Positions 3,541-22,135 of a stretch of 64,000 nucleotides of DNA are shown here, piece by piece; positions within the stretch are counted from its first letter, which is position 1, and each line of letters starts with the position of its first letter. The stretch lies in the NCBI GenBank assembly GCA_035268685.1, contig DATFKK010000173.1, positions 1-64,000 of the forward strand, given 5' to 3'. This DNA is from Candidatus Krumholzibacteriia bacterium. Its GTDB lineage: Bacteria > Krumholzibacteriota > Krumholzibacteriia > JAJRXK01. The notes beneath the pieces were generated by a model, which ran no database searches, had not been told where the DNA came from, and saw nothing but the letters and a program-made list of their open reading frames with translations. Both the position numbers and the translations under genes were made by a program.

Positions 3541-5139
3541 GTGATCGAATTCGAACTCGTCGTCAACGGCCAGTTGACCCCCCTGCAGCTCGTGGACGGG
3601 CTGCACCGGGTCGGCCGCGCCCCCGACAACGACATCACCATCTCGGTTCCCAGTGTGAGCAAGCACCACGCGGTTCTGCGCGTGGAGGGCGGGGCCCTGT
3701 TCGTTCGCGACCTTGGCAGTACCAATGGTACTGATATAGACGGAAAGCCCATCGGCAACGAGGAGATCGAGGCCGGGAAACACGCGACGGTGCGTTTCGC
3801 CGGGGTCCCGCTCTGGCGGGCGGTCCGCCAGGACGACTCCACGGCAACGCTCTCGCGCGACGAGGAAGTCAGCCCCTCGACGATATATCGTCCCGATGAG
3901 GACTACAGCGAGTCCGCTCGGGCCCGAATCGTCGACATGTTGTCGAATCTGTTCGAGCTGGTGGCGTCGGAGGCCGACGCCCAGGAACTCGAGCGCCAGG
4001 CCTGCGGCTTCGTGTCGCGCTTCGTCGACACCGACCGGGTGATCCTGCTGCAGGACGAGGGCGAGGGCACCGAGCTGAGCGTGAAGGCCCAGTGGCTGTC
4101 CCAGGGCAAGGCGTCGACCCAGAGCCAGGAGCGCCTGCGCCTGAGCACGACCCTGGTCGGCCAGGTCCTGAGCGAGCGCTCGTCGGTGCTCGTGGCGAAC
4201 ACGCTGAACGACCCGCGCTTCGCCGATCAGGGCAGCATCCTGCACCTCGACCTGAAGTCGGCCATGGCGGCCCCGCTCTTCGACAACCAGCGCGTGCGCG
4301 GGATTCTGTACGTCGACTGCAGTCGACCCCAGGTGCAGTACGACACCGAGGACCTGCAGGTGCTCACCGCCACCGCCAACGCCGTGGCGGTGAAGCTGCG
4401 CACGCTGACGCTCGAGAAGGAGATCCGCACCGCGGCGCGGATCCAGATGGCCATGCTCCCCGAGGACCTCCCGGTTCCCGAGGGCTGGTCGCTGGACTGC
4501 CACCTGACCATGTGCCGCGAGGTCGGCGGCGACCTCTACCACTGTCTGCCCCGCCCCGACGGACGCACCCTCCTGGTGCTCGGCGACGTGGCCGGCAAGG
4601 GCGTGCCCGCGTCGCTGGCCATGGCAGCGACCATCGTGCTGATCCGTTCGCTGAACGACCTGGGCACCAGCCTCGAGGACATGGCTCCGCATCTGAACTC
4701 CCAGCTCGGCGAGAGCCTGGCCCCGGAGCAGTTCGTGACCCTGTTCGTGGCCGAGCTCGACCACGAGACGGGACGCCTACGCTACTTCAACGCGGGTCAC
4801 GAGCCGCCGCGGATCCACCGCAAGGTCTCCGACGCGATCGAGGAGCTGCCGTCGACCGGCCGCCCCACGGCCATGCTCCCGTTCGGTGACTTCGGAGTGT
4901 CCGAGTGCACGCTCGAGATCGGCGACACCCTCGCGGTGTTCAGCGACGGAATCCCCGAGGCCACGCGCAGTGGCGACGAGTTCTTCGGTCTCGAGGGAGT
5001 CGACGCCGCTCTGCGCACGCACGCGACCGATCACGTGTCGGCGATCCGGCAGTCGATCCTGGCGGCGATCGAGGACTACCTGGAAGCGGAACGCGCGTCG
5101 GACGACATCACGCTCATGATCCTGCGACGCTCGGCCTGA
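3541..5139 (+). CDS. FHA-GAF-PP2C (RsbU-like) protein phosphatase
   Basis: 532 residues joining three signalling modules. Residues 1-95 form an FHA phosphopeptide-binding domain (GRAPDN, SVSKHHAVL, GSTNGT are the conserved Arg, Ser-xx-His and Asn-Gly motifs). A GAF domain spans about 135-290. A SpoIIE/RsbU-type PP2C phosphatase follows from about 292, with metal-binding aspartates in EVGGDLYH, GDVAGKG, FSDGIPEA and SDDITLMIL. Such proteins dephosphorylate anti-anti-sigma (STAS) proteins or phosphothreonine targets; a STAS-containing protein is encoded near 61 kb, a possible but unproven partner. The GTG at 3541 is chosen because the FHA fold begins there and a promoter lies just upstream. It ends six bases before the convergent membrane-protein gene. 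Confidence 0.9.
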   Translation: MIEFELVVNGQLTPLQLVDGLHRVGRAPDNDITISVPSVSKHHAVLRVEGGALFVRDLGSTNGTDIDGKPIGNEEIEAGKHATVRFAGVPLWRAVRQDDSTATLSRDEEVSPSTIYRPDEDYSESARARIVDMLSNLFELVASEADAQELERQACGFVSRFVDTDRVILLQDEGEGTELSVKAQWLSQGKASTQSQERLRLSTTLVGQVLSERSSVLVANTLNDPRFADQGSILHLDLKSAMAAPLFDNQRVRGILYVDCSRPQVQYDTEDLQVLTATANAVAVKLRTLTLEKEIRTAARIQMAMLPEDLPVPEGWSLDCHLTMCREVGGDLYHCLPRPDGRTLLVLGDVAGKGVPASLAMAATIVLIRSLNDLGTSLEDMAPHLNSQLGESLAPEQFVTLFVAELDHETGRLRYFNAGHEPPRIHRKVSDAIEELPSTGRPTAMLPFGDFGVSECTLEIGDTLAVFSDGIPEATRSGDEFFGLEGVDAALRTHATDHVSAIRQSILAAIEDYLEAERASDDITLMILRRSA

Positions 5140-5145
5140 CCCGGG

Positions 5146-5607
5146 TCACCGGAACTGGGCCACGAACACCGCGCGGTCCGACCGGCCGGGTCCCGACGAC
5201 GCCAGCAGCAGCAGCGAGACGGCGTAGAAGATCGCCGTGATGCCCAGATCGACACCCAGGACCGACAGCAGCAGCCCGTAGACCCCGATCCCCTCCATCA
5301 GGGCCCACCGCAACACGCAGTACACCACGTAGCTGGCGCGCGAGAGCGCGGCGATCATCTGCCGCAGCAGGAAGACCACGAGCACGTGCAGACCCGAACC
5401 CATGGCCAGGAAGATCAGCAGCCAGGTCTCGAGTTCCTGGTCGACGACCTGCGTGCGCGAGGGCACCACGGTTACGGTCAGCACCGCGTAGAGCACGATC
5501 GACACCATCATGGCGATCCAGATCCAGGGGAGCTTCGACTCGCCCGGCTGGACCTGCTGTGCGCGCTCGTAAGCGTCGTCGTGGGGCGACGCCGGAGGTC
5601 CGTTCAC
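5146..5607 (-). CDS. Four-helix membrane protein of unknown function
   Basis: 153 residues: a polar N-terminus of about 35 residues, then four predicted membrane helices beginning at LPWIWIAMMVSIVLYAVL. No family recognised. GTG at 5607 overlaps the stop of the upstream thioredoxin gene (GTGA), so the two are translationally coupled and presumably functionally linked. A longer in-frame start upstream exists but would lie within the thioredoxin gene. Confidence 0.7.
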   Translation of the reverse strand: MNGPPASPHDDAYERAQQVQPGESKLPWIWIAMMVSIVLYAVLTVTVVPSRTQVVDQELETWLLIFLAMGSGLHVLVVFLLRQMIAALSRASYVVYCVLRWALMEGIGVYGLLLSVLGVDLGITAIFYAVSLLLLASSGPGRSDRAVFVAQFR

Positions 5608-6110
5608 CGTCCGGACGTCTCCTCTTGGGGAAGCTCGCGCAGCCACGACACGATGGTCTCGTAGGCCGGCTGGCCCTCGTCCATGAGTTCGCCGTCGGCC
5701 CCGTAGATCTTGAAGTGCGGGATCGAGCGGATGCCGTACTGCTGCAGCACGGGCGAGGTCCAGTCGATGCCTTCCTTGCCCGGGCGGTTCACGTCGACCT
5801 TCACCACCTGGATGTCGTCACGCTCCTCGTGCAGACGATCGAGCCAGGGAGCGATCTGCACGCAGGGCGGACAGTAGTCGCTCATGAAGTCGAACACGGT
5901 GATCTGGCCCTCGGCCAGGTAGTCGGTGATCTCGGTCCGCTGGCCCTGGGCGATGCGGATGGGCTTGTCCGTGTCCGCCGTCTGCTCCTGCTGCGCCGCG
6001 GAGGCCTCCGGCCCCGCCTCGTCGGCATTGCTGCTGTTCGAGGTGCAGGCGATCAGCGTGAGGCTCAGGAAGAGCGCGGCCAAGGTGGTCGGGCGGAGCG
6101 GAAGTCGCAT
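5604..6110 (-). CDS. Thioredoxin-fold lipoprotein
   Basis: 168 residues. The N-terminus (RPTTLAALFLSLTLIACTS) is a lipoprotein signal with the lipobox Cys near residue 21, followed by a disordered Glu/Ala/Gln-rich tether. The thioredoxin fold starts near 50 with active site SDYCPPCVQIAPWL (CPPC, reducing TlpA/ResA-like variant) and ends with the cis-proline segment IRSIPHFKIYG. Likely a periplasm-facing thiol oxidoreductase; the ccmH-like gene is only 2 kb away, so a role in cytochrome maturation is plausible but inferred. Its stop overlaps the start of the downstream membrane-protein gene. Confidence 0.88.
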   Translation of the reverse strand: MRLPLRPTTLAALFLSLTLIACTSNSSNADEAGPEASAAQQEQTADTDKPIRIAQGQRTEITDYLAEGQITVFDFMSDYCPPCVQIAPWLDRLHEERDDIQVVKVDVNRPGKEGIDWTSPVLQQYGIRSIPHFKIYGADGELMDEGQPAYETIVSWLRELPQEETSGR

Positions 6111-6286
6111 GTCGTGTCTCCGTACGGAATGCCCCGGGGGACCGGACTCCCCCGGATGGGTGTGGGGACAAGAATAGCCCCTCTGAGGGCCAACGCACTT
6201 GCGGGCCTGTGAAGTTCCCGCTAAACACACCGCGGAACGGCCCGTTCCGGCCTGTTTCCCCCGGTCCCCCGGCCCAGGACCCGGTC

Positions 6287-6523
6287 ATGGCCGATCGCGA
6301 CGACAAGCTCCCGGGCCAGGCTCCCGGCCCCTACTACGTCGACGGCCAGTGCATCGACTGCGACCTGTGCCGTCAGGCCGCCCCGGCCAACTTCGAGCGC
6401 AACGACGCCGAGGGCTTCTCGTACCTGGCCCGCCAGCCCGAGACCGACGAAGAGCACGCCGCGTGCCGCGAGGCCCTCGAAGAGTGCCCCGTCGAGGCGA
6501 TCGGCGACGACGGCGAGGACTGA
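6287..6523 (+). CDS. Single-cluster [4Fe-4S] ferredoxin
   Basis: 78 residues, acidic. Cys22, Cys25 and Cys28 (CIDCDLC) plus Cys67 in the ECPVEAI segment match Bacillus-type monocluster ferredoxins; an extra Cys60 lies just before. Electron carrier in the cytoplasm. ATG at 6287 is preferred because upstream codons (from 6209) are proline-rich and unlike the family; the ribosome site is weak. The next gene, peptide deformylase, begins 30 bases later, so they probably share a transcript. Confidence 0.88.
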   Translation: MADRDDKLPGQAPGPYYVDGQCIDCDLCRQAAPANFERNDAEGFSYLARQPETDEEHAACREALEECPVEAIGDDGED

Positions 6524-6553
6524 ATCCCGTCCTGCCCACGAGAGGTGGAACCC

Positions 6554-7120
6554 GTGAAGCACGTCCTGAAGGTGGCCCGCATGGGCAATCCGGTGCTCCG
6601 CCGCAAGGCCGAGCCCGTGGATCCCGCCGCCATTCCCAGCCGCGAGTTCCAGGACTTCGTCGACTCCATGCTGCTGACCATGCACGAGTACTCGGGCATC
6701 GGCCTGGCCGCCCCGCAGGTGCACAAGAGCCTGCGCGTGGTGGTGTTCCACGAGGGCGCCGGACTCACCGACGGCGACGGGGAACCCCTGACCGCGCTGA
6801 TCAACCCCGAGGTCACGCCGCTCACCGAGGACCTGCGCGCGATCTGGGAGGGCTGCCTGAGCGTGCCCGGCCTGCGCGGCCGCGTGTCGCGCCCCGAACG
6901 GATCCGCGTCACCGGCCTCGACCGCAAGGGACGCGCGGTCGACCTCGAACTCGAGGACTTCGACGCCGTGGTCACCCAGCACGAGTTCGACCACCTCGAC
7001 GGCGTGCTCTACACCGACAAGGTCGACGATCCGACCCTGCTCGTGTTCGAGGACGAGTTCGAGCGCTTCTGGGCCGAGAAGGCCGAGGAGGACGGCGACT
7101 TCGTCGACGACGAGGGTTGA
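6554..7120 (+). CDS. def: Peptide deformylase
   Basis: Removes the formyl group from the initiator methionine of new proteins. 188 residues. All three motifs are present: GIGLAAPQV near residue 53, EGCLSVPG near 102 (Cys ligand) and QHEFDHLDG near 145 (two His ligands and catalytic Glu). The start is the GTG at 6554, nine bases after a GAGAGG ribosome site; a GTG at 6545 lies within that site and is less likely. The C-terminal tail is acidic. It sits behind a ferredoxin gene rather than the more usual fmt/priA neighbours. Confidence 0.93.
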   Translation: MKHVLKVARMGNPVLRRKAEPVDPAAIPSREFQDFVDSMLLTMHEYSGIGLAAPQVHKSLRVVVFHEGAGLTDGDGEPLTALINPEVTPLTEDLRAIWEGCLSVPGLRGRVSRPERIRVTGLDRKGRAVDLELEDFDAVVTQHEFDHLDGVLYTDKVDDPTLLVFEDEFERFWAEKAEEDGDFVDDEG

Positions 7121-7126
7121 TCTTGG

Positions 7127-7143
7127 CCGCGGGCCGCCCGCGG
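7127..7143. terminator. Possible terminator hairpin between convergent genes
   Basis: Seven-base perfect stem CCGCGGG/CCCGCGG with a three-base loop, seven bases after the def stop. No T-run follows on either strand, so intrinsic termination is uncertain. Confidence 0.35.
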
Positions 7144-7182
7144 TGCCACTTCTTCACCGACTGCAGCGATCCCTGGTAGGAC

Positions 7183-8733
7183 TCAGACCCGCGGCCGCAG
7201 CGACCACTCCACCAGCGCCAGCAGTCCGTCCACCAGCAGCGCCAGCACCGCCGCCGGCAGCGCGCCGCTCAGGATGATCGCCGCGTCGTCGAGCTGCAGG
7301 CCGGCCACGATCGGCTCGCCCAGTCCACCCGCGCCGATGAACGCGGCCAGCGTGGCCGTTCCCACACAGATCACCGCCGCCGTACGGATCCCGGCCAGGA
7401 TCACCGGCACCGCCAGCGGCAGCTTCACGTGCACGAGTACCTGCCGCGGTGTCATGCCGAGCGCCGTGGCGCTCTGCGCGGCGGCCGGCCCCGCGTCGCG
7501 CACGCCGGTGAAGGTGTTCCGCACGATCGGGTAGAGCCCGTACAGGAACAGCGCCGCGATCGCCGGCGGCGCGCCGACGCCCAGCAGCGGGATCATGAAG
7601 GCGAGCAGGGCGATCGAGGGAATGGTCTGCAGGATCCCCACGCCGCGGATCACGGTCTCGGCGCGGCCGGCCTGGCGTTCGAGCACCAGGCCGAGCGGAA
7701 CGGCCACGAGGATGCTCAGCGACAGCGCCCCGAACACCAGTCCCAGATGTTCCAGCGTGCGCTGCAGCAGCGCGCCTCGCTCGTCGACCAGGACGTCGAA
7801 GACGTTTCTCTCACGCCCACCATCGCCCGCGGCCGCCGACGCCGCCGCGGCCTCGGCGCCGGTGACCACGCCGAGCTGTTCGAGGAACTCCGCGGCCACG
7901 CGTTCGATCGGTTCGCCGTCGACCTCCACCCGACGGTTGAGGGCGCGCATCGAATCCTCGTCGAGCACGTCCGACAGACGCTGCAGCCGTATGCCCAGCC
8001 GCGGGTGGGCGTCGAGCGTGGGGCCGTGCACGAGCGGTGCGGCAGAGTAGGGCGGGAACACGGCGCGCGGATCGTCGAGCACGAGCAGGTCGTGGACGAG
8101 GATCAGTCCGTCGGTGGTGTAGACGTCGATGACGTCGACCTCGCCGTCGCCGGCCGCGGCGTACTTCAAGGTCTGTTGCATGCCGACCAGGCGCTGCGGA
8201 TCGAGGCCGTAGACCGCGCGCAGCCCCACGAGCCCGTCGCGCCGCTGTTGGAACTCGTAGCCGAAGGCGTAGCGCAGGTCGTCGCCCCGCGCGGCGAGGT
8301 CGGCAATGGTGCGCAGGTCGCGTTCCTCGGCCACCGCCCGGCGCACGGCGACCTCGTAGGCGTTCTCGAAGCCGAGCGGTGCGAGCCAGCGCAGGTCCCA
8401 GCGATCGCGGAAGATCCGGCGCACCTTCGCCAGCACCTCGGACTCGGTCCCCGTGGCCGGTTCGCCGAGCAGAGTGACCAGGCCGGTGCCCGTGTACTCG
8501 GGGTAGACGTCGATCGAGCCGTTGCGCAGCGCGCGGAAGCACACCGACGTGCCGGCCAGGTTGAAGCGGCGGTCCACCCGGAACGCGCCGCCGGCCTCGA
8601 GCGTCTGCGCGAAGATCTCGGCCAGCAGGCGGCTCTCGGAGAAGTTCTTCGAGCCGACGACCACGGTGGGCGCGTCCTGCGCGGCGACCGGGGCCGCCAG
8701 CAGGAGCACCACGAGGACGATCCGGGTGCTCAC
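7183..8733 (-). CDS. OpuC-type ABC transporter: binding protein fused to permease
   Basis: 516 residues combining two parts of a glycine betaine/choline (quaternary amine) importer. A signal peptide (1-18) leads into an OpuAC/ProX-like solute-binding domain (about 20-305; GSKNFSESRLLAE and DVYPEYTGTG are family signatures). After an Ala/Gly-rich linker, a BinPT permease domain with five to six helices spans about 320-516, including the EAA-like loop ATALGMTPRQVLVHVKLPLA. Known fusions in this family usually have the permease first and the binding domain last; this order is reversed. Substrate is not readable from sequence: betaine, choline, carnitine or ergothioneine are all possible. GTG at 8733 overlaps the stop of the ATPase gene (GTGA). 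Confidence 0.88.
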   Translation of the reverse strand: MSTRIVLVVLLLAAPVAAQDAPTVVVGSKNFSESRLLAEIFAQTLEAGGAFRVDRRFNLAGTSVCFRALRNGSIDVYPEYTGTGLVTLLGEPATGTESEVLAKVRRIFRDRWDLRWLAPLGFENAYEVAVRRAVAEERDLRTIADLAARGDDLRYAFGYEFQQRRDGLVGLRAVYGLDPQRLVGMQQTLKYAAAGDGEVDVIDVYTTDGLILVHDLLVLDDPRAVFPPYSAAPLVHGPTLDAHPRLGIRLQRLSDVLDEDSMRALNRRVEVDGEPIERVAAEFLEQLGVVTGAEAAAASAAAGDGGRERNVFDVLVDERGALLQRTLEHLGLVFGALSLSILVAVPLGLVLERQAGRAETVIRGVGILQTIPSIALLAFMIPLLGVGAPPAIAALFLYGLYPIVRNTFTGVRDAGPAAAQSATALGMTPRQVLVHVKLPLAVPVILAGIRTAAVICVGTATLAAFIGAGGLGEPIVAGLQLDDAAIILSGALPAAVLALLVDGLLALVEWSLRPRV

Positions 8734-9470
8734 GCCACGCTCCCCGAAGCCCGCAGCAGCGCGCGCACGTAACCGTTGGCGGGCGCGGCCCGGAGTTCGG
8801 CGGCGCTGGCCTGTTGCTGGACCGCGCCGTCGCGCAGGACGACCACGCGATCACCCAGGCGCAGGGCTTCGGCCATGTCGTGCGTCACCAGCAGCGTCGT
8901 CTTGTGCAGATCGCGCTGCCAGCGGGCGACCTCGTCCTGCAGTTCGGTCCGCAGGACCGGGTCGAGGGCACCGAAGGGCTCGTCGAGCAGCAGCACCCGT
9001 GGGTCGGCGGCGAGCGCGCGGGCGAAGGCGACACGCTGCCGCTGTCCACCCGAAAGGGCACTCGGACGGCGGTCGGCGAAGCTCGCCGGATCGAGACCCA
9101 CGAGCTCAAGCAGTTCGCGCGATCGGGCGACACGTCGTTCCCGCGGCCAGTCGAGGAGCCACGGCACCAGCTCGATGTTCTCGCGCACGCTCCAGTGTGG
9201 CAGCAGGCCTCCGTCCTGCTGCACGTAGCCGATCGAGCGGCGCAGGCCTTCCACCGCGACCGCGTCGACGGACGTGCGGTCGACCTCCACCCGCCCACCG
9301 CTCGGCCGGACCATGCGGTTGAAGCACTTGAGCAGGGTGGTCTTGCCGCTGCCGCTCTCGCCCACCAGGGCCACGGTCTCGCCCTCGGACACCCGCAGCG
9401 ACACGCCCCGCAGGGCCTGCACCCCGCCGGGGTAGGTCACGTGGAGATCGTCGCAGGAGAGCGCGCTCAT
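8730..9470 (-). CDS. OpuC-type ABC transporter ATP-binding subunit
   Basis: 246 residues. Walker A GESGSGKTT near 38, Q-loop in YVQQDGGLLPHW, signature LSGGQRQRVAFARAL, Walker B RVLLLDEPFGALDP and switch His in LLVTHDM. Closest to the ProV/OpuCA/OpuAA branch, but it lacks the C-terminal CBS domains that many osmoregulatory members carry, so gating by ionic strength through CBS is not expected. It is the first gene of a two-gene operon with the fused permease and is divergent from the MarR gene. Confidence 0.9.
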   Translation of the reverse strand: MSALSCDDLHVTYPGGVQALRGVSLRVSEGETVALVGESGSGKTTLLKCFNRMVRPSGGRVEVDRTSVDAVAVEGLRRSIGYVQQDGGLLPHWSVRENIELVPWLLDWPRERRVARSRELLELVGLDPASFADRRPSALSGGQRQRVAFARALAADPRVLLLDEPFGALDPVLRTELQDEVARWQRDLHKTTLLVTHDMAEALRLGDRVVVLRDGAVQQQASAAELRAAPANGYVRALLRASGSVA

Positions 9471-9527
9471 GGACAGCAGCCTAGGCGATCGAGATCGCGG
9501 CGTCTCGGTGCGCCCGCGACGATCGTT

Positions 9528-9555
9528 CGTGTACGAAGGAGATCTCTGCCGTCAA
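9528..9555 (-). promoter_or_regulatory. Promoter of the OpuC-type operon with overlapping operator
   Basis: On the minus strand TTGACG (9550-9555), 16-base spacer, TACACG (9528-9533). An inverted repeat, TTCGTGTACGAA on the plus strand (9526-9537), overlaps the -10 box. A near match lies on the -10 box of the divergent marR promoter, suggesting a shared MarR operator (inference). Confidence 0.6.
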
Positions 9556-9618
9556 CCTTCGGACTTCCAGCCCTCTGCTGGCATGTTCTTGGGCATGAGA
9601 GCCGAATTCTGCCGCAGG

Positions 9619-16677: not shown

Positions 16678-17973
16678 TCAGTCGTCGTCACCCGACAGGG
16701 CCGAGAGCACGGCAGCCGGGAGGTCGATCGACCGTAGCCCGCTGGCCGTGATCCGCCGGGCGGTCTCCTCGACGAAATCGTCCACGTCGTCGGTCTCGCC
16801 GAGCAACCCGGCCACGACCGCGAGTGCTCCACTCGCGCTCCCGGTCGCCATCGAGGTTCCGGTGGCCGATGCCCACCGTCCCCCGGGGAACGCGCTCAGC
16901 ACCCCGACCCCGGGCGCCGCGAGATCGACTTCGCTGGCGGCGCTGAACCCGGCCAGAGCGAATCCGGCGTCGAGGGCCGCGATCGAGACCACCTCGTCGT
17001 CGCTCGCCGGATACAGGGCCGCCCCCGGGCGATTCCCCGCCGCACCCACGATGACCATGTCGTCCTCGAGCTCGTCGAGGATCTCCTCGATCACCGCCGC
17101 CTCGTCCGACAGCACCAGACTCAGGTTGACGATGTCCGCACCCCACGCGGCGGCGCGGTAGAGTCCGCGCGCCAGGTCGAAGGCCGTGCCGACTCCGTCG
17201 GAGTCGAGTACGCGGATGCTCAGGATCTCGGCCCCCGGCGCCACGCTGGCCACGATCCCCGCCACGTGGGTCCCGTGACCGTAGGCCTCGTCGAAGACCC
17301 CGTCGCCGTCGGTGTCGACTCCCTGCTCGATCTCGATCGAACCGAGTCCCCACTCGCCTTCCTCGATGAGCTGCACGCGCCCGGCGAGTAGCGGATGCGT
17401 CGGATCGACGCCGGTGTCGAGCACGGCGACCTTCACCCCCGCACCCCGCGCACTCGCGTGCACCTCGTCGAGGTTCCACGCCGCGAACGCATCCTGCGCC
17501 GGAAGGTCGGAATCGAAGTCGCCTTCGTAGAAGCTCATCGTGAGCTCGACCGGCGAGCTGAACTCCATGGGACCATCGGTCTGGAAGGCCAGCACGCGCG
17601 GATCGTCGATCAGGTCGTCGGCGTCGAAGGTCCCGTCGACCAGCACCATCCGCCCGCCGCCGAGCGTCTGCACGAGCTCGAAGTCGTACTCGGTCAGGAC
17701 CGCGTCGCGCGTCGTGGCGAGGGAGTCGACCAGGAACAGGCTCAGGTCGGCGATGGGCGCCGGATCGGTCGGGTCGTCGGCGGGAGGGTCGTCGGCGGGA
17801 GGATCGTCACCCGGAGGGTCGTCGGCGGGAGGGTCGTCGGGTACCTCACCCGGCGGCGGATCCTCGCCCGGTCGGAGGGGGTTCGACGGGTCGTCGGTGG
17901 AACAGCCCGCCACGCCCAGCGCGCAGACGAGGGCGAATCCGAGGAGACGCGCACCGATTCCGAAGCGTTTCAT
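16678..17973 (-). CDS. Subtilisin-like (S8) serine protease lipoprotein
   Basis: 431 residues. Signal peptide with lipobox (LVCALGVAGC, Cys near 24), then an Asp/Pro-rich tether of repeated DDPPA units (about 28-70), a short propeptide-like segment, and the S8 catalytic domain from about 185: Asp in VAVLDTGVDPTHP, His in GHGTHVAGIVA, oxyanion Asn in AAGNRPG and Ser in TGTSMATG. All triad residues are present. Likely anchored to a membrane and acting in the periplasm or at the surface. Start is ATG at 17973; upstream in-frame codons do not look like a signal peptide. No partner gene in the same direction. Confidence 0.9.
   Translation of the reverse strand: MKRFGIGARLLGFALVCALGVAGCSTDDPSNPLRPGEDPPPGEVPDDPPADDPPGDDPPADDPPADDPTDPAPIADLSLFLVDSLATTRDAVLTEYDFELVQTLGGGRMVLVDGTFDADDLIDDPRVLAFQTDGPMEFSSPVELTMSFYEGDFDSDLPAQDAFAAWNLDEVHASARGAGVKVAVLDTGVDPTHPLLAGRVQLIEEGEWGLGSIEIEQGVDTDGDGVFDEAYGHGTHVAGIVASVAPGAEILSIRVLDSDGVGTAFDLARGLYRAAAWGADIVNLSLVLSDEAAVIEEILDELEDDMVIVGAAGNRPGAALYPASDDEVVSIAALDAGFALAGFSAASEVDLAAPGVGVLSAFPGGRWASATGTSMATGSASGALAVVAGLLGETDDVDDFVEETARRITASGLRSIDLPAAVLSALSGDDD
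17771..17840 (-). repeat. 15-bp tandem repeat encoding the DDPPA linker
   Basis: About four and two-thirds copies of a 15-base unit (plus strand GGGTCGTCGGCGGGA) in frame inside the S8 protease gene; copy 3 is diverged. The copy number can slip, changing linker length. Confidence 0.75.
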
Positions 17974-18280
17974 GGTGTCCGGGACCTCTCGCCGACCGAC
18001 CCCGAAGGACCGATCCCGACCGTGGGGTGTGTGTGCCGTCAACACGGCCTGAGGTGCTCCGTCGATCCGTCGTTGATACACCTCACGCATCGAATCCCGG
18101 CCCCCGCGTGCAGGGTTCGCTGTGGATTCGTGACCCAAGAGTATCAACCGCGGGTCGAAACGTCACCTGGGTCACGACGAAGGGCGAGGTGGGCGCGGGG
18201 GTCGATCGGCTGGCCGCGGGCGACGGCAGACCGTAGAATCCGGCCGGATCCCGCAGACCCGAACGCGAATCGGAGCGACC
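17974..18280. other. Divergent intergenic region
   Basis: About 307 bases between the S8 protease and sigma-factor genes. It should contain both promoters. Plus-strand candidate for the sigma operon: TGGCCG (18211-18216), 17-base spacer, TAGAAT (18234-18239), 41 bases before the GTG start; the -35 is weak. No gene or clear hairpin seen. Confidence 0.4.
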
Positions 18281-18853
18281 GTGGCCCGCGCGCCCTCCCG
18301 TCCATCGCCGCGAGACCTCGACGACCCCGCGCTGGTGGCACGGTGTCTCGAGGACGACGAACGCGCCTGGAAGACCCTGGTGACGAGGTATCGGGCCTTG
18401 GTGTACTCGACCGCGCTGCGGACCGGCATCGACGACGAAACGGCGGGCGACGTCTTCCAGCAGGTGTGGATCGAACTGCACCGCTCGCTCGACCGCGTCC
18501 GCGACGCCCAGGCCCTGCCGCAGTGGCTGATCGTCACCACGCGCCGCGTCGCCTACAAGATCGCCACGAAGAACGACCGCCCCGTCGAGGGCGCACTCGA
18601 CGAGATGGTCGATCCGTCGGCGCTTCCGGGCGACGAGCTGCAGGAGCTGCAGGACCTCCAACGCATCCGCGACCACATCGAGGCACTGGGCGGAACCTGC
18701 GCGCGGCTGCTGCCGCTGCTGTTCTTCGACGAGCGCGAGCCCGACTACAAGAAGATCTCCGAGACCGCCGGCGTCGCCGTCGGATCGATCGGCCCTCTCC
18801 GCGCCCGCTGCCTGAAGCGGCTGCGCGCCCGCCTCGAGGAGCAACGGCCATGA
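18281..18853 (+). CDS. ECF-like sigma-70 family RNA polymerase sigma factor
   Basis: 190 residues with region 2 (about 18-95: LVTRYRALVYSTALRTGID, then DVFQQVWIELHRSLDRV and the -10 contact region LPQWLIVTTRRVAYK) and region 4 (about 140-190: the helix-turn-helix KKISETAGVAVGSIGPLRARCLKRLRARL). Directs RNA polymerase to a dedicated promoter set. First gene of a three-gene operon: its stop overlaps the start of the 165-residue protein (ATGA), and the TPR-CHAT protein begins right after. No zinc-finger anti-sigma gene is adjacent, so control is probably by the linked proteins (inference). Start is GTG at 18281. Confidence 0.87.
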   Translation: MARAPSRPSPRDLDDPALVARCLEDDERAWKTLVTRYRALVYSTALRTGIDDETAGDVFQQVWIELHRSLDRVRDAQALPQWLIVTTRRVAYKIATKNDRPVEGALDEMVDPSALPGDELQELQDLQRIRDHIEALGGTCARLLPLLFFDEREPDYKKISETAGVAVGSIGPLRARCLKRLRARLEEQRP

Positions 18854-19347
18854 GTGCACGCCGTCGTTCGGCGCAGGAATGGCTCGACCTGCTCGCGCAG
18901 GGCGGAGCACGGTGGAAGGAACCGCCAGAGGACCTGGTCTCGCGCGCTCTCGGCGCACGCAGTGAGAAGCGCATGCCCCGCGCGAAGCGCCGTCGCACGG
19001 TCCACTGGGACGCCGCCGACGTGCGCAGCCCCGGCGGTCCTTCGGTGGCCGACGACGCGAAGATCGTCGCCGGATCGTGTCCGGGCGGCGAGGTCAGCGT
19101 GCTCGTGCACCCGCCCCTGCAGAACGCCACCTGGAGCTTCGAGGCCCGGATCTGGTTCGCCGAACCCGACGGCACCGCCCGCGCCATCATCGGTCTGGTC
19201 CACGACGACCACGTCCTGCAGCGCCACGAAGTGGCCGACGGCGAGATGCTCCGCTTCGAGGAGATCGTACCCGACGGGTGGAGCCTGGAGATCCACCTGC
19301 CCGACGGCGACACGGTCGTGCTGGACGACCCCTTCCACGCGGAGTGA
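18850..19347 (+). CDS. Conserved-looking 165-residue protein between sigma factor and CHAT protease
   Basis: No family recognised. The N-terminal part (1-60) is amphipathic and basic (AQEWLDLLAQGGARW, then EKRMPRAKRRRTVHW); the rest (65-165) looks all-beta, with strands such as WSFEARIWFAEPDG and DGWSLEIHLPDGDTVVL. No signal peptide or membrane helix. The start overlaps the sigma gene stop and it ends four bases before the CHAT gene start. Candidate roles, all inferred: sigma-factor regulator, or CHAT substrate or inhibitor. Confidence 0.72.
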   Translation: MSARRRSAQEWLDLLAQGGARWKEPPEDLVSRALGARSEKRMPRAKRRRTVHWDAADVRSPGGPSVADDAKIVAGSCPGGEVSVLVHPPLQNATWSFEARIWFAEPDGTARAIIGLVHDDHVLQRHEVADGEMLRFEEIVPDGWSLEIHLPDGDTVVLDDPFHAE

Positions 19348-19351
19348 GACC

Positions 19352-22135
19352 TTGGGCGACGGCACGCACTCCTCCGCGGTGGAGACCGCCGACGCCCTGC
19401 TCGCCCTCCCTGCCGACGCGGGGCTCCTGCGCGCGTGGTCCGGCGTTCGCTCGTCGACCGAGGCCTTCGGCGTCCTGCAGTCGCTGGTCCTGCAGCTGAT
19501 CCGCGAGCGGCCCACCCTGGCGAACCACGTGGTGGAGCACGCGCTCGCGTCGGAGTCGATCGACGACGCGGTCGACCGCCTGCGCCTCATCCGGCTGCAC
19601 GCGCACACGGCCAAGGCCACCGGAGACCTTCCCGCTTCGCTCGAGCGCTACGCACAGGCGTTCGAAGGGCTGCGCAGCATCGACGATCCTGTGGAGGCCG
19701 CCCGCACCGTGATCGGCTGGAGTGACGCGCTCGCCCTGGCCGGAGACTCCCGCGCCGCGCAGGAACGGATCCACCAGGCCCGCGCCCTTCTGGGCCGGCG
19801 CGACCCCGTGGCGGCCGTACGGCTCGAGGGTTCGGCCGCGACCGTTCACTACCTCGCCGGAGAGTACGATCAGGCCGAAGCCTTGTATCGCCGAGCGCGC
19901 GACCGCGCTCGGCGGCGGCACCAACCGGTCGACGCGGCCGTGTGCACCTTCAACCTGGCGAACGTCGACCTGCTGCGTGGGCAGGCGTCGCGGGCCCGGC
20001 GCGGCTACCGGCGAGCCCACGACGTGTTCGCGGCCCAGGGGCTCGAACTCGCCGCACTGCAGTGCCGCTACGGCATCGCCGCCTGCGAACTGCACCGCGG
20101 ATCGTGGCCCGACGCGATCGCCGAACTCGACCGCGTGGCCGAGCAGATCCGCGAACGCGGCGACCGCCGCGGCGCGGCGGCGATCGATCACGAGGCCGCG
20201 GAACTGCTCACGAGCCTCGGCGCCGATCCGGTGGCCGAGGTGCACGCCCGCCGGGCCCGTGCCGACTTCACCGCCATGGGACTGGGCCCCGAGCGCGCCC
20301 GCGCCGCGGCCCTGCACGGGCGGATCCTCGCCCACATGGGGCGCGGACACGACGCACTCCGGCGGGTCGACGAAGCCGCGACCGCTTTCGAGTCGATGGG
20401 ACGCGACGACGTCGTGGAACGACTCACGCTCGAGCGGGCCCACGTCGACCTCGGTCGCGGCCGCATCCCCGACGACACCGCCCTCGACACGATCGTGCGC
20501 CGGGCGACACGCCGCGGCGATCGGACCACCGCCACCCGCGCCCGCACCCTGCGCGCCGAGACGGCTCTGCGCGGCGGTCGGACGGGTTCCGCCCTGCGGT
20601 TGGCGCGGCGCGCTCACGACGACGCGGCGCGACCGCCGCTCACCGGCCTGCGGCCCCGCCTCGCCCTGCTCGTGGCGCGGGCCCACGCCGCGGCCGGTCG
20701 CGGCGACGACGCCGTCCGCTGGGCACGGAAGGCCGTCCGGGCCCAGGAGCGTCTGGCCGCGCGCGTCGGAGACCAGGCCGAGAGCCTGGGCGTGGGCCAC
20801 GCCCGCGACCGGATCGCCGGCGACGCGGTCGACATCGTGCTCGAACACGGCGGATCCGACGCGCCCCGCCAGGCGCTTCGCCTGCTGATGTCGCTGCGCG
20901 AGGGGTCGGTCTTCGCCGACCTGCTGCGCGGTCGCCACCACAGCGTGCGCGAGGACCTGCGCGCCGCCCTGGCCCGCGTGCGCGACCGTCTCATGGAATC
21001 GGGCGGCACGGCCGACGACGTACGGTCGGTGGCCCTGGGACACGAGGTCCACCGCCTGGAGCGGCGTCTGCGTCTGCAGAAGGACCCGGCACCGCCGTCC
21101 GCGGTCTGGACACCGCGCCACGGGACCCCGCGCACGTGGATCGATCGTACCGGTGGCCGGCCCCTGGTCATCTACGACCGGACCGATCAGCGCTGGGGCG
21201 CCTTCGTCGTGGAACGCGGTGGACGCACCCGCTACGTCGACCTTCCCGACGCCGGGACGGCGCTCCGCGAGCACTGGATCCCCCTGCGCATGCTCTTCGA
21301 GGCGCTGGCGCGGACGCCCGCGCGGGCGAGGGACCGACTGCTGGGCCGCACCGTGGACGAAGCCCGGGCGGGCCTGACCGGAGTCACCGACGCGCTGTGG
21401 ACGCCGCTCGCCCTCGACGCATCCGAGGTCGTCGTCGTCTCGACCGGCGCGATGAACGGCGTGGGCCTCGAGGCCGCGCTCCTCGAGACCCTGGGCCGCG
21501 ATGCCCCCGTGCTGGCCCGCGTGCCCCACCCGGAGCTGCTGGTCGTCGGGGACCGGCCGCGGCGTCCCCGCGCCCTGCTGGTCGAAGGCACCGTCCCGGG
21601 CGCGCGTCGCGAGATCGAGGAGATCGAGAGCCGGCTGCAGCGTTCGGGATGGAAGGTGGACGTGGCCCGTTCCCGCGCGGAGTTCCTGGCCACGCGCACG
21701 ACCTACGGTCTGGTCCATCTGGCCACCCACGGCAGCTTCCACCGCCACCGATGGGTGTCGAACGGCCTGCAACTTCCCGACGGATGGCTCGGCTTCGAAC
21801 AGCTCGACCCGCGCCGCGTGCGCGACGCGTTGCTCGTGTTCGACAGCTGCGAGTCGGGCCTGCAGAACGAGGCGCCCGGCGCCGAGCTCGACGGCTGGGC
21901 CAGCGCCGGCTTCGCCGCCGGTGCCCGTGACATCGTGCTGCACCAGTGGAAGATCGACGACGCCTCGGCCACGCGGTTCATGGGTGCGTTCTACGGCGAG
22001 GTGCTGGACGCCGCGTCGATCGCCCACGCCGTCCACCGTGCACGCCGGACGGTGCGGGAGGCCACACCCCACCCCTTCGCCTGGGCCAGCACCTTCCTGT
22101 CGAGCCGCACGCCCTTCGCCGGCAACGGTTCCTGA
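19352..22135 (+). CDS. TPR repeat protein with C-terminal CHAT caspase-like protease domain
   Basis: 927 residues. About 1-560 is an alpha-solenoid of Arg/Ala-rich TPR-like repeats (for example LAGEYDQAEALYRRARDRAR). The CHAT domain occupies about 640-927, with the catalytic His in VHLATHGSF near 790 and the catalytic Cys in VFDSCESG near 831, followed by ARDIVLHQWKIDD typical of CHAT. CHAT proteases are caspase relatives that cleave partners after activation and occur in bacterial immunity and signalling. Coupling to a sigma factor suggests proteolytic control of transcription. TTG at 19352 is chosen for its GGAG ribosome site; GTG at 19379 is an alternative. Confidence 0.87.
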   Translation: MGDGTHSSAVETADALLALPADAGLLRAWSGVRSSTEAFGVLQSLVLQLIRERPTLANHVVEHALASESIDDAVDRLRLIRLHAHTAKATGDLPASLERYAQAFEGLRSIDDPVEAARTVIGWSDALALAGDSRAAQERIHQARALLGRRDPVAAVRLEGSAATVHYLAGEYDQAEALYRRARDRARRRHQPVDAAVCTFNLANVDLLRGQASRARRGYRRAHDVFAAQGLELAALQCRYGIAACELHRGSWPDAIAELDRVAEQIRERGDRRGAAAIDHEAAELLTSLGADPVAEVHARRARADFTAMGLGPERARAAALHGRILAHMGRGHDALRRVDEAATAFESMGRDDVVERLTLERAHVDLGRGRIPDDTALDTIVRRATRRGDRTTATRARTLRAETALRGGRTGSALRLARRAHDDAARPPLTGLRPRLALLVARAHAAAGRGDDAVRWARKAVRAQERLAARVGDQAESLGVGHARDRIAGDAVDIVLEHGGSDAPRQALRLLMSLREGSVFADLLRGRHHSVREDLRAALARVRDRLMESGGTADDVRSVALGHEVHRLERRLRLQKDPAPPSAVWTPRHGTPRTWIDRTGGRPLVIYDRTDQRWGAFVVERGGRTRYVDLPDAGTALREHWIPLRMLFEALARTPARARDRLLGRTVDEARAGLTGVTDALWTPLALDASEVVVVSTGAMNGVGLEAALLETLGRDAPVLARVPHPELLVVGDRPRRPRALLVEGTVPGARREIEEIESRLQRSGWKVDVARSRAEFLATRTTYGLVHLATHGSFHRHRWVSNGLQLPDGWLGFEQLDPRRVRDALLVFDSCESGLQNEAPGAELDGWASAGFAAGARDIVLHQWKIDDASATRFMGAFYGEVLDAASIAHAVHRARRTVREATPHPFAWASTFLSSRTPFAGNGS

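Follow-up and report, generated by a model that had tools for sequence, protein, structure and literature searches.

We analysed a window of 64,000 nucleotides from a Candidatus Krumholzibacteriia bacterium (assembly GCA_035268685.1, contig DATFKK010000173.1, positions 1 to 64,000 of the forward strand; "the window" means this whole stretch), in which the genes for an extracytoplasmic function (ECF) sigma factor, a small protein and a TPR-CHAT protease form a tight operon (Table 1). The ATG of the small-protein gene overlaps the sigma factor stop codon as ATGA, while the TTG start of the protease gene lies 4 bases past the small-protein stop codon and has GGAG upstream. All open reading frames, starts and overlaps of this operon were found where a preliminary description of the window had placed them. 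That description had also treated the three genes as one transcription and translation unit; they are indeed conserved together, but it overlooked a fourth gene, a subtilase transcribed divergently from the sigma factor gene, and a two-box motif in the intergenic region (17974-18280) which faces both genes.

Table 1 Features of the window operon, the adjoining subtilase gene and other sigma-CHAT pairs.
Feature	Coordinates	Strand	Description or basis
ECF sigma factor gene	18281..18853	+	190 aa, GTG start; TIGR02937, Pfam Sigma70_r2
Small-protein gene (apparently a shortened anti-sigma factor)	18850..19347	+	165 aa; homologous to zinc anti-sigma (ZAS) small proteins, same gene position
Small-protein helix region, residues 8-35	18871..18954	+	AlphaFold2 model and alignment gap
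Small-protein beta-sandwich, residues 71-159	19060..19326	+	AlphaFold2 model, weak CarboxypepD_reg matches in relatives
TPR-CHAT protease gene	19352..22135	+	927 aa, TTG start; Pfam CHAT and TPR_12
CHAT domain, residues 719-916	21506..22099	+	Extent of Pfam match
Catalytic His793 codon (HLATHG)	21728..21730	+	Invariant in 29/29 CHAT domains
Catalytic Cys833 codon (DSCESG)	21848..21850	+	Invariant in 29/29 CHAT domains
Two-box motif facing sigma gene	18140..18147; second box 18162-18167	+	First box AGTATCAA; second box GTCACC
Two-box motif facing subtilase gene	18052..18080	-	TGTATCAA-N15-GCACCT
S8 subtilase gene	16678..17973	-	431 aa; homologues beside related cassettes, catalytic motifs
Other sigma-CHAT pair, L122	CHAT 6813-9533; sigma open reading frame 9041-9613	-; -	
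Other sigma-CHAT pair, L125	sigma 4224-4868; CHAT 4574-7636	-; +	

Pfam searches of the window proteins matched the sigma factor to Sigma70_r2 (1.5e-9) and the third protein to CHAT (6.3e-27) and TPR_12 (2.2e-11). The sigma factor scored 54.1 bits against TIGR02937 (cut-off 42.9) over residues 29-185, and the profile of its family covers sigma2 and sigma4 of the solved ECF structures SigK, RpoE and SigW from end to end; by these comparisons it is of ECF type, with sigma2 and sigma4 domains only. The subtilase has a lipoprotein-type signal sequence (..GVAGC) and intact Asp, His and Ser motifs (DTGVD, GHGTH and GTSMA).

The catalytic residues of the CHAT domain, described earlier as intact, are both present, and the dyad is invariant in 13/13 close relatives and in all 29 CHAT domains from the three groups of related loci introduced below. 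These 29 domains share 19-44% identity with the window domain, and E177, W289 and D293 (domain-alignment numbering) are invariant in them as well. Invariance of the dyad at such identities shows that selection maintains CHAT catalysis. Among solved structures the closest CHAT domains were those of the Csx29/TPR-CHAT protein of Craspase (3.1e-16), then separases and then 8rot, a CHAT protein of 991 residues. 8rot and 8rlz (antisigma factor DdvA) share their N-terminal stretch, by which 8rot is a natural fusion of an anti-sigma domain and a CHAT domain; DdvA belongs to the DdvS/DdvA pair of Myxococcus xanthus. PADLOC likened the CHAT protein to BovA (1.5e-7) and the subtilase to a generic subtilase model, which we did not accept as proof of a role in defence.

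A small protein of anti-sigma descent

The window small protein alone gave no match in Pfam, NCBIfam or the PDB and, because such single-sequence searches were empty, its nature is visible only through an alignment of its family. The preliminary description had called it unrecognised, which holds for Pfam searches of this one sequence, but relatives exist in the same gene position. Five relatives in the window's family carry Hx3Cx2C near the N-terminus, and in a set of 11 sequences including Acidobacteria and Eisenbacteria-like members H2, H27, C31 and C34 are invariant, which is the ZAS pattern. The zinc-finger anti-sigma motif Hx3-4Cx2C occurs in 44 of 61 related small proteins and is missing in the other 17. 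Two relatives matched zf-HC2 above the Pfam cut-off (24.7 and 24.9 vs 22.2 bits) and others gave weak matches to anti-sigma models, while the N-terminal profile of the family matched the solved structures RsiW (1.3e-7), DdvA (2e-6), 3hug_B (3.2e-5; an RslA-type protein) and ChrR (9e-4). Given the zinc motif, the zf-HC2 matches and the matches to solved anti-sigma factors, the small proteins form, by homology, a family of anti-sigma ancestry with a C-terminal beta-sandwich. The earlier statement that no classical anti-sigma factor is present at the locus is thereby overturned: the small protein belongs to the zinc-finger anti-sigma family, and the window copy has lost the zinc ligands.

In the window copy the ligands H..Hx3Cx2C are absent, with an alignment gap over the Hx3Cx2C region. 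AlphaFold2 modelled this protein with a mean predicted local distance difference test (pLDDT) score of 87.9 and placed two helices ahead of the sandwich (residues 8-16 and 27-35; block pLDDT 74-86), which sit at the aligned places of helix 1 and helix 4; four helices were predicted for a relative with the zinc site. In known pairs helix 1 contacts sigma4 and helix 4 contacts sigma2, whereas helix 2 is dispensable; within anti-sigma groups, some members have a zinc motif and others do not (PMC7406223). On the model and with this putative helix assignment, the window small protein seems to retain just helices 1 and 4 of the anti-sigma domain, having neither helices 2-3 nor the zinc site, and so suggests a minimal size for an anti-sigma domain: two helices and no zinc bundle.

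The beta-sandwich was modelled with a pLDDT of about 93-97. In relatives it matched CarboxypepD_reg weakly, with a best value of 5.5e-4 that does not reach the Pfam cut-off, and Foldseek searches of both small-protein models against the PDB returned weak, generic beta-sandwich matches, none below 1e-3. One Acidobacterium contig (L090:3822-4856, minus strand) encodes a NusG-type protein (PF02357, 6.3e-16) fused to the cassette beta-sandwich, beside CHAT and subtilase genes; this short contig holds no sigma factor. The NusG domain here replaces the anti-sigma part, which suggests that it is the sandwich that goes with CHAT and that the regulator is exchangeable. We also observed the same sandwich on other Acidobacterial proteins with no CHAT nearby (L098:2324-2884, L099:4359-5507, L100:7080-7643 and L101:4772-5482), and in L100 and L101 it lies, by eye, behind a small KOW-like region.

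Conservation of the four-gene cassette and its upstream motif

The choice of related loci rested on resemblance to the small protein or to the sigma factor and took no account of their other neighbours; the loci fall into Krumholzibacteriota, Eisenbacteria-like and Acidobacteria groups. Besides the window copy, searches with the small protein yielded one more in the window genome; a congeneric genome has three, and two further genomes of the family have one and eight. Across 80 genomes of the phylum, the small protein had strong matches over its full length in just the four genomes of the window's family; elsewhere the matches were weak and covered the N-terminal part only.

The order sigma-small-CHAT was found in 11 of the first 13 homologous loci, mostly with 4- or 1-base overlaps at the gene junctions; of the two exceptions, L026 has no CHAT gene and L027 starts at a contig end. 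This arrangement is far above chance, and the synteny check proposed in the preliminary description accordingly came out in its favour, the three genes being conserved together well beyond the window genome. A subtilase homologue adjoins 11/13 of these cassettes, in several orientations. Among 61 further small-protein genes, 31 were well flanked (at least 5 kb on either side), and these loci contained a sigma factor in 30 cases, CHAT in 29, a subtilase in 27 and all four genes in 26. Gene orders included sigma-small-CHAT-subtilase, sigma-CHAT-small-subtilase and sigma-small-subtilase-CHAT, as well as inverted subtilases; the Acidobacteria carried the four genes as sigma-CHAT-small-subtilase and in other orders, and four-gene loci were also present in Eisenbacteria-like genomes. 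A plasmid search with the sigma factor led to a Nonomuraea (Actinomycetota) locus with the order subtilase-sigma-small-CHAT, whose small protein matches at 2.6e-4. The two Streptomyces matches of this search have no cassette, and a plasmid search with the small protein gave no match. Judged from these homologies, a conserved four-gene switch recurs in about four bacterial phyla. The trees of the sigma factor, small protein and CHAT protein agree beyond shuffles (r 0.48-0.53, p 0.0008-0.002), as expected for a unit inherited together.

Several further features of these loci were observed. Genome G003 holds nine cassette loci, which make cognate specificity among paralogues testable. L178 (2356-7947 and 8013-14942), L183 and L103 each have paired cassettes in one stretch, with two small-protein genes, which suggests local duplication. 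Tandem repeats such as DQSEAGFL stand just ahead of the catalytic-His region in Acidobacterial cassette subtilases (L042:9942-11288, L043:9964-11277 and L090:3-824). The window genome encodes six further CHAT proteins, two of which, in L122 and L125 (Table 1), adjoin other ECF-like sigma factors (~1e-11 to the cassette sigma profile), and there may be further sigma-CHAT pairings beyond the cassette.

In 25 upstream regions, with expectations taken from first-order resampling, GTATCA was present in 9 (0.49 expected) and TGTATCA in 7 (0.09 expected). Fourteen instances of the motif read WGYATCAR, and a second box close to GCCCCT follows 14 bases past the GYATCAR heptamer (p about 0.0003 against flank shuffles and rotations). 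Where the genes are divergent (the window, L021 and L022), one copy points toward each gene. The two-box motif fits a sigma-dependent promoter of the sigma factor and subtilase genes, with this sigma factor as the putative partner. Two matches away from cassettes (L134 at 1501; L137 at 1528, minus strand) lie ~65-75 bases ahead of genes for secreted-lipoprotein-like products, which could be members of a regulon; the pattern is not enriched genome-wide.

A proposed signalling circuit and its alternatives

We consider it fairly probable that the four genes form a signalling cassette in which the TPR-CHAT protein, on receiving a signal, cuts the anti-sigma small protein, and the freed sigma factor transcribes the operon and the subtilase. 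With its N-terminal helices the small protein would bind the ECF sigma factor, and it would offer its C-terminal beta-sandwich to TPR-CHAT. The TPR part would sense the signal, upon which CHAT would cut the anti-sigma factor or start its destruction, and the freed sigma factor would then transcribe the operon that encodes it and the adjoining gene for the secreted subtilase, the output of the system. Cleavage of the small protein by CHAT is probable in our view, and we infer the sigma binding and the signal in the same way. The circuit drawn in the preliminary description, with a TPR-gated, caspase-like protease acting on a regulator of the sigma factor, remains the best model, except that the regulator would be the very anti-sigma factor whose presence had been denied.

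This reading draws on the synteny, the Nonomuraea locus, the descent of the small protein from anti-sigma factors, the helices of the window copy, the DdvA-type fusion, the tree agreement, the upstream motif and the precedent of Craspase. In the latter, a type III-E CRISPR system, Csx30 inhibits an ECF sigma factor and is cleaved by the TPR-CHAT protein Csx29, a cut that probably lifts the inhibition (PMC10028731). Several observations weigh against it. Small-protein profiles compared with the PDB showed no detectable similarity to a Csx30 chain. Neighbouring genes share history anyway, so that agreement among their trees is expected, and the agreement between subtilase and sigma trees is weak (p 0.09). 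L026 (4212-5245) has a sigma factor and a small-protein gene but, over the 4 kb of downstream sequence at hand, neither CHAT nor subtilase, and may be a cassette stripped of its protease; L106 has a small-protein gene and a subtilase only. Across four genomes the strict motif had 17 matches and its reversed control 18, so a wider regulon is unsupported.

The TPR-CHAT protein and the subtilase could instead both be effectors, launched for stress, killing or cell death by a sigma/anti-sigma pair that senses something else, for instance redox state through zinc. Soluble pairs with a zinc site often do sense redox by themselves (PMC7406223), the CHAT gene shares the sigma factor's operon, as one would expect of an autoregulated target, and L026 carries the pair without CHAT. 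We nevertheless regard this as unlikely: CHAT is usually kept although the zinc site is gone from the window copy and from 17/61 relatives, the DdvA-type fusion places an anti-sigma domain and CHAT in one chain, and in L090 CHAT and subtilase still accompany the sandwich although a NusG domain has taken the place of the anti-sigma part.

The invariance of His and Cys in domains of such low identity, together with E177, W289 and D293, argues against a TPR-CHAT protein that regulates the anti-sigma factor by binding, with complex formation and not cleavage releasing the sigma factor. We hold this alternative to be improbable. In its favour, TPR domains serve as scaffolds for binding. Conformational change is also a known release route for soluble anti-sigma factors (PMC8999054). 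Lowest of all we place degradation of the sigma factor by the protease, which would keep the system switched off; a review proposes this for ECF54 from gene context (PMC8999054), whereas an anti-sigma factor is present in the related loci examined. With cleavage of the anti-sigma factor as the preferred reading, the small protein offers a specific candidate substrate for proteases of a large class of bacterial relatives of caspases.

Comparison with known systems

Craspase and the cassette both combine a TPR-CHAT protease, a two-domain inhibitor and an ECF sigma factor (CASP-sigma in Craspase, RpoE), and the cassette CHAT domains match Csx29 best among solved structures. The Craspase inhibitor binds sigma through its N-terminal domain and is recognised by the protease through its C-terminal part, and we propose parallel roles for the two parts of the cassette protein. 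In contrast to Craspase, the window genome (99% complete) has no RAMP/Cas7-type protein (PF03787), with controls positive in 4 genomes, and on this ground we reject a CRISPR link for the cassette. The cassette also has an added subtilase gene, and its small protein of 165 residues has no detectable similarity to Csx30 (PDB chains), in which residue numbers reach 565 (PMC10028731).

Should cleavage of the small protein hold true, the logic of Craspase would be that of a circuit found in bacteria generally, not one peculiar to CRISPR. As a tentative extension, the cassette could be a widespread, CRISPR-free counterpart of Craspase, in which a caspase-like sensor protease cuts a sandwich-tagged regulator, mostly an anti-sigma factor and in one case a NusG-type antiterminator, and so launches a secreted subtilase; such a two-protease cascade might serve defence or programmed death, and the CRISPR version might have been recruited from such a system.

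In DdvA (8rlz, 8rot), too, a zinc anti-sigma domain acts together with CHAT. These lie in one chain there, whereas the window and the related cassettes examined have separate genes; the cassette anti-sigma factor moreover bears a beta-sandwich, and the window copy has lost the zinc site. With the class I zinc anti-sigma factors ChrR, RsrA and RsiW the relatives share the zinc anti-sigma fold and the position beside the sigma factor gene; the window copy differs from them in having neither zinc ligands nor, on the model, helices 2-3, in its C-terminal beta-sandwich and in its proposed CHAT protease partner.

The ECF54 sigma factors of Actinobacteria have carboxypeptidase, subtilase and CHAT genes nearby and are stated to have no anti-sigma factor, being perhaps controlled by proteolysis (PMC8999054). 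The cassette shares this carboxypeptidase-type, subtilase and CHAT setting, a likeness of gene context, and the Nonomuraea locus holds the same four genes. Unlike ECF54 as described, the cassette has an anti-sigma candidate in its "carboxypeptidase" protein. This suggests, from sequence homology, that the carboxypeptidase-like protein of ECF54-type contexts is an anti-sigma factor, and it supplies a candidate for sigma factors whose CHAT and subtilase neighbourhood had been read as anti-sigma-free.

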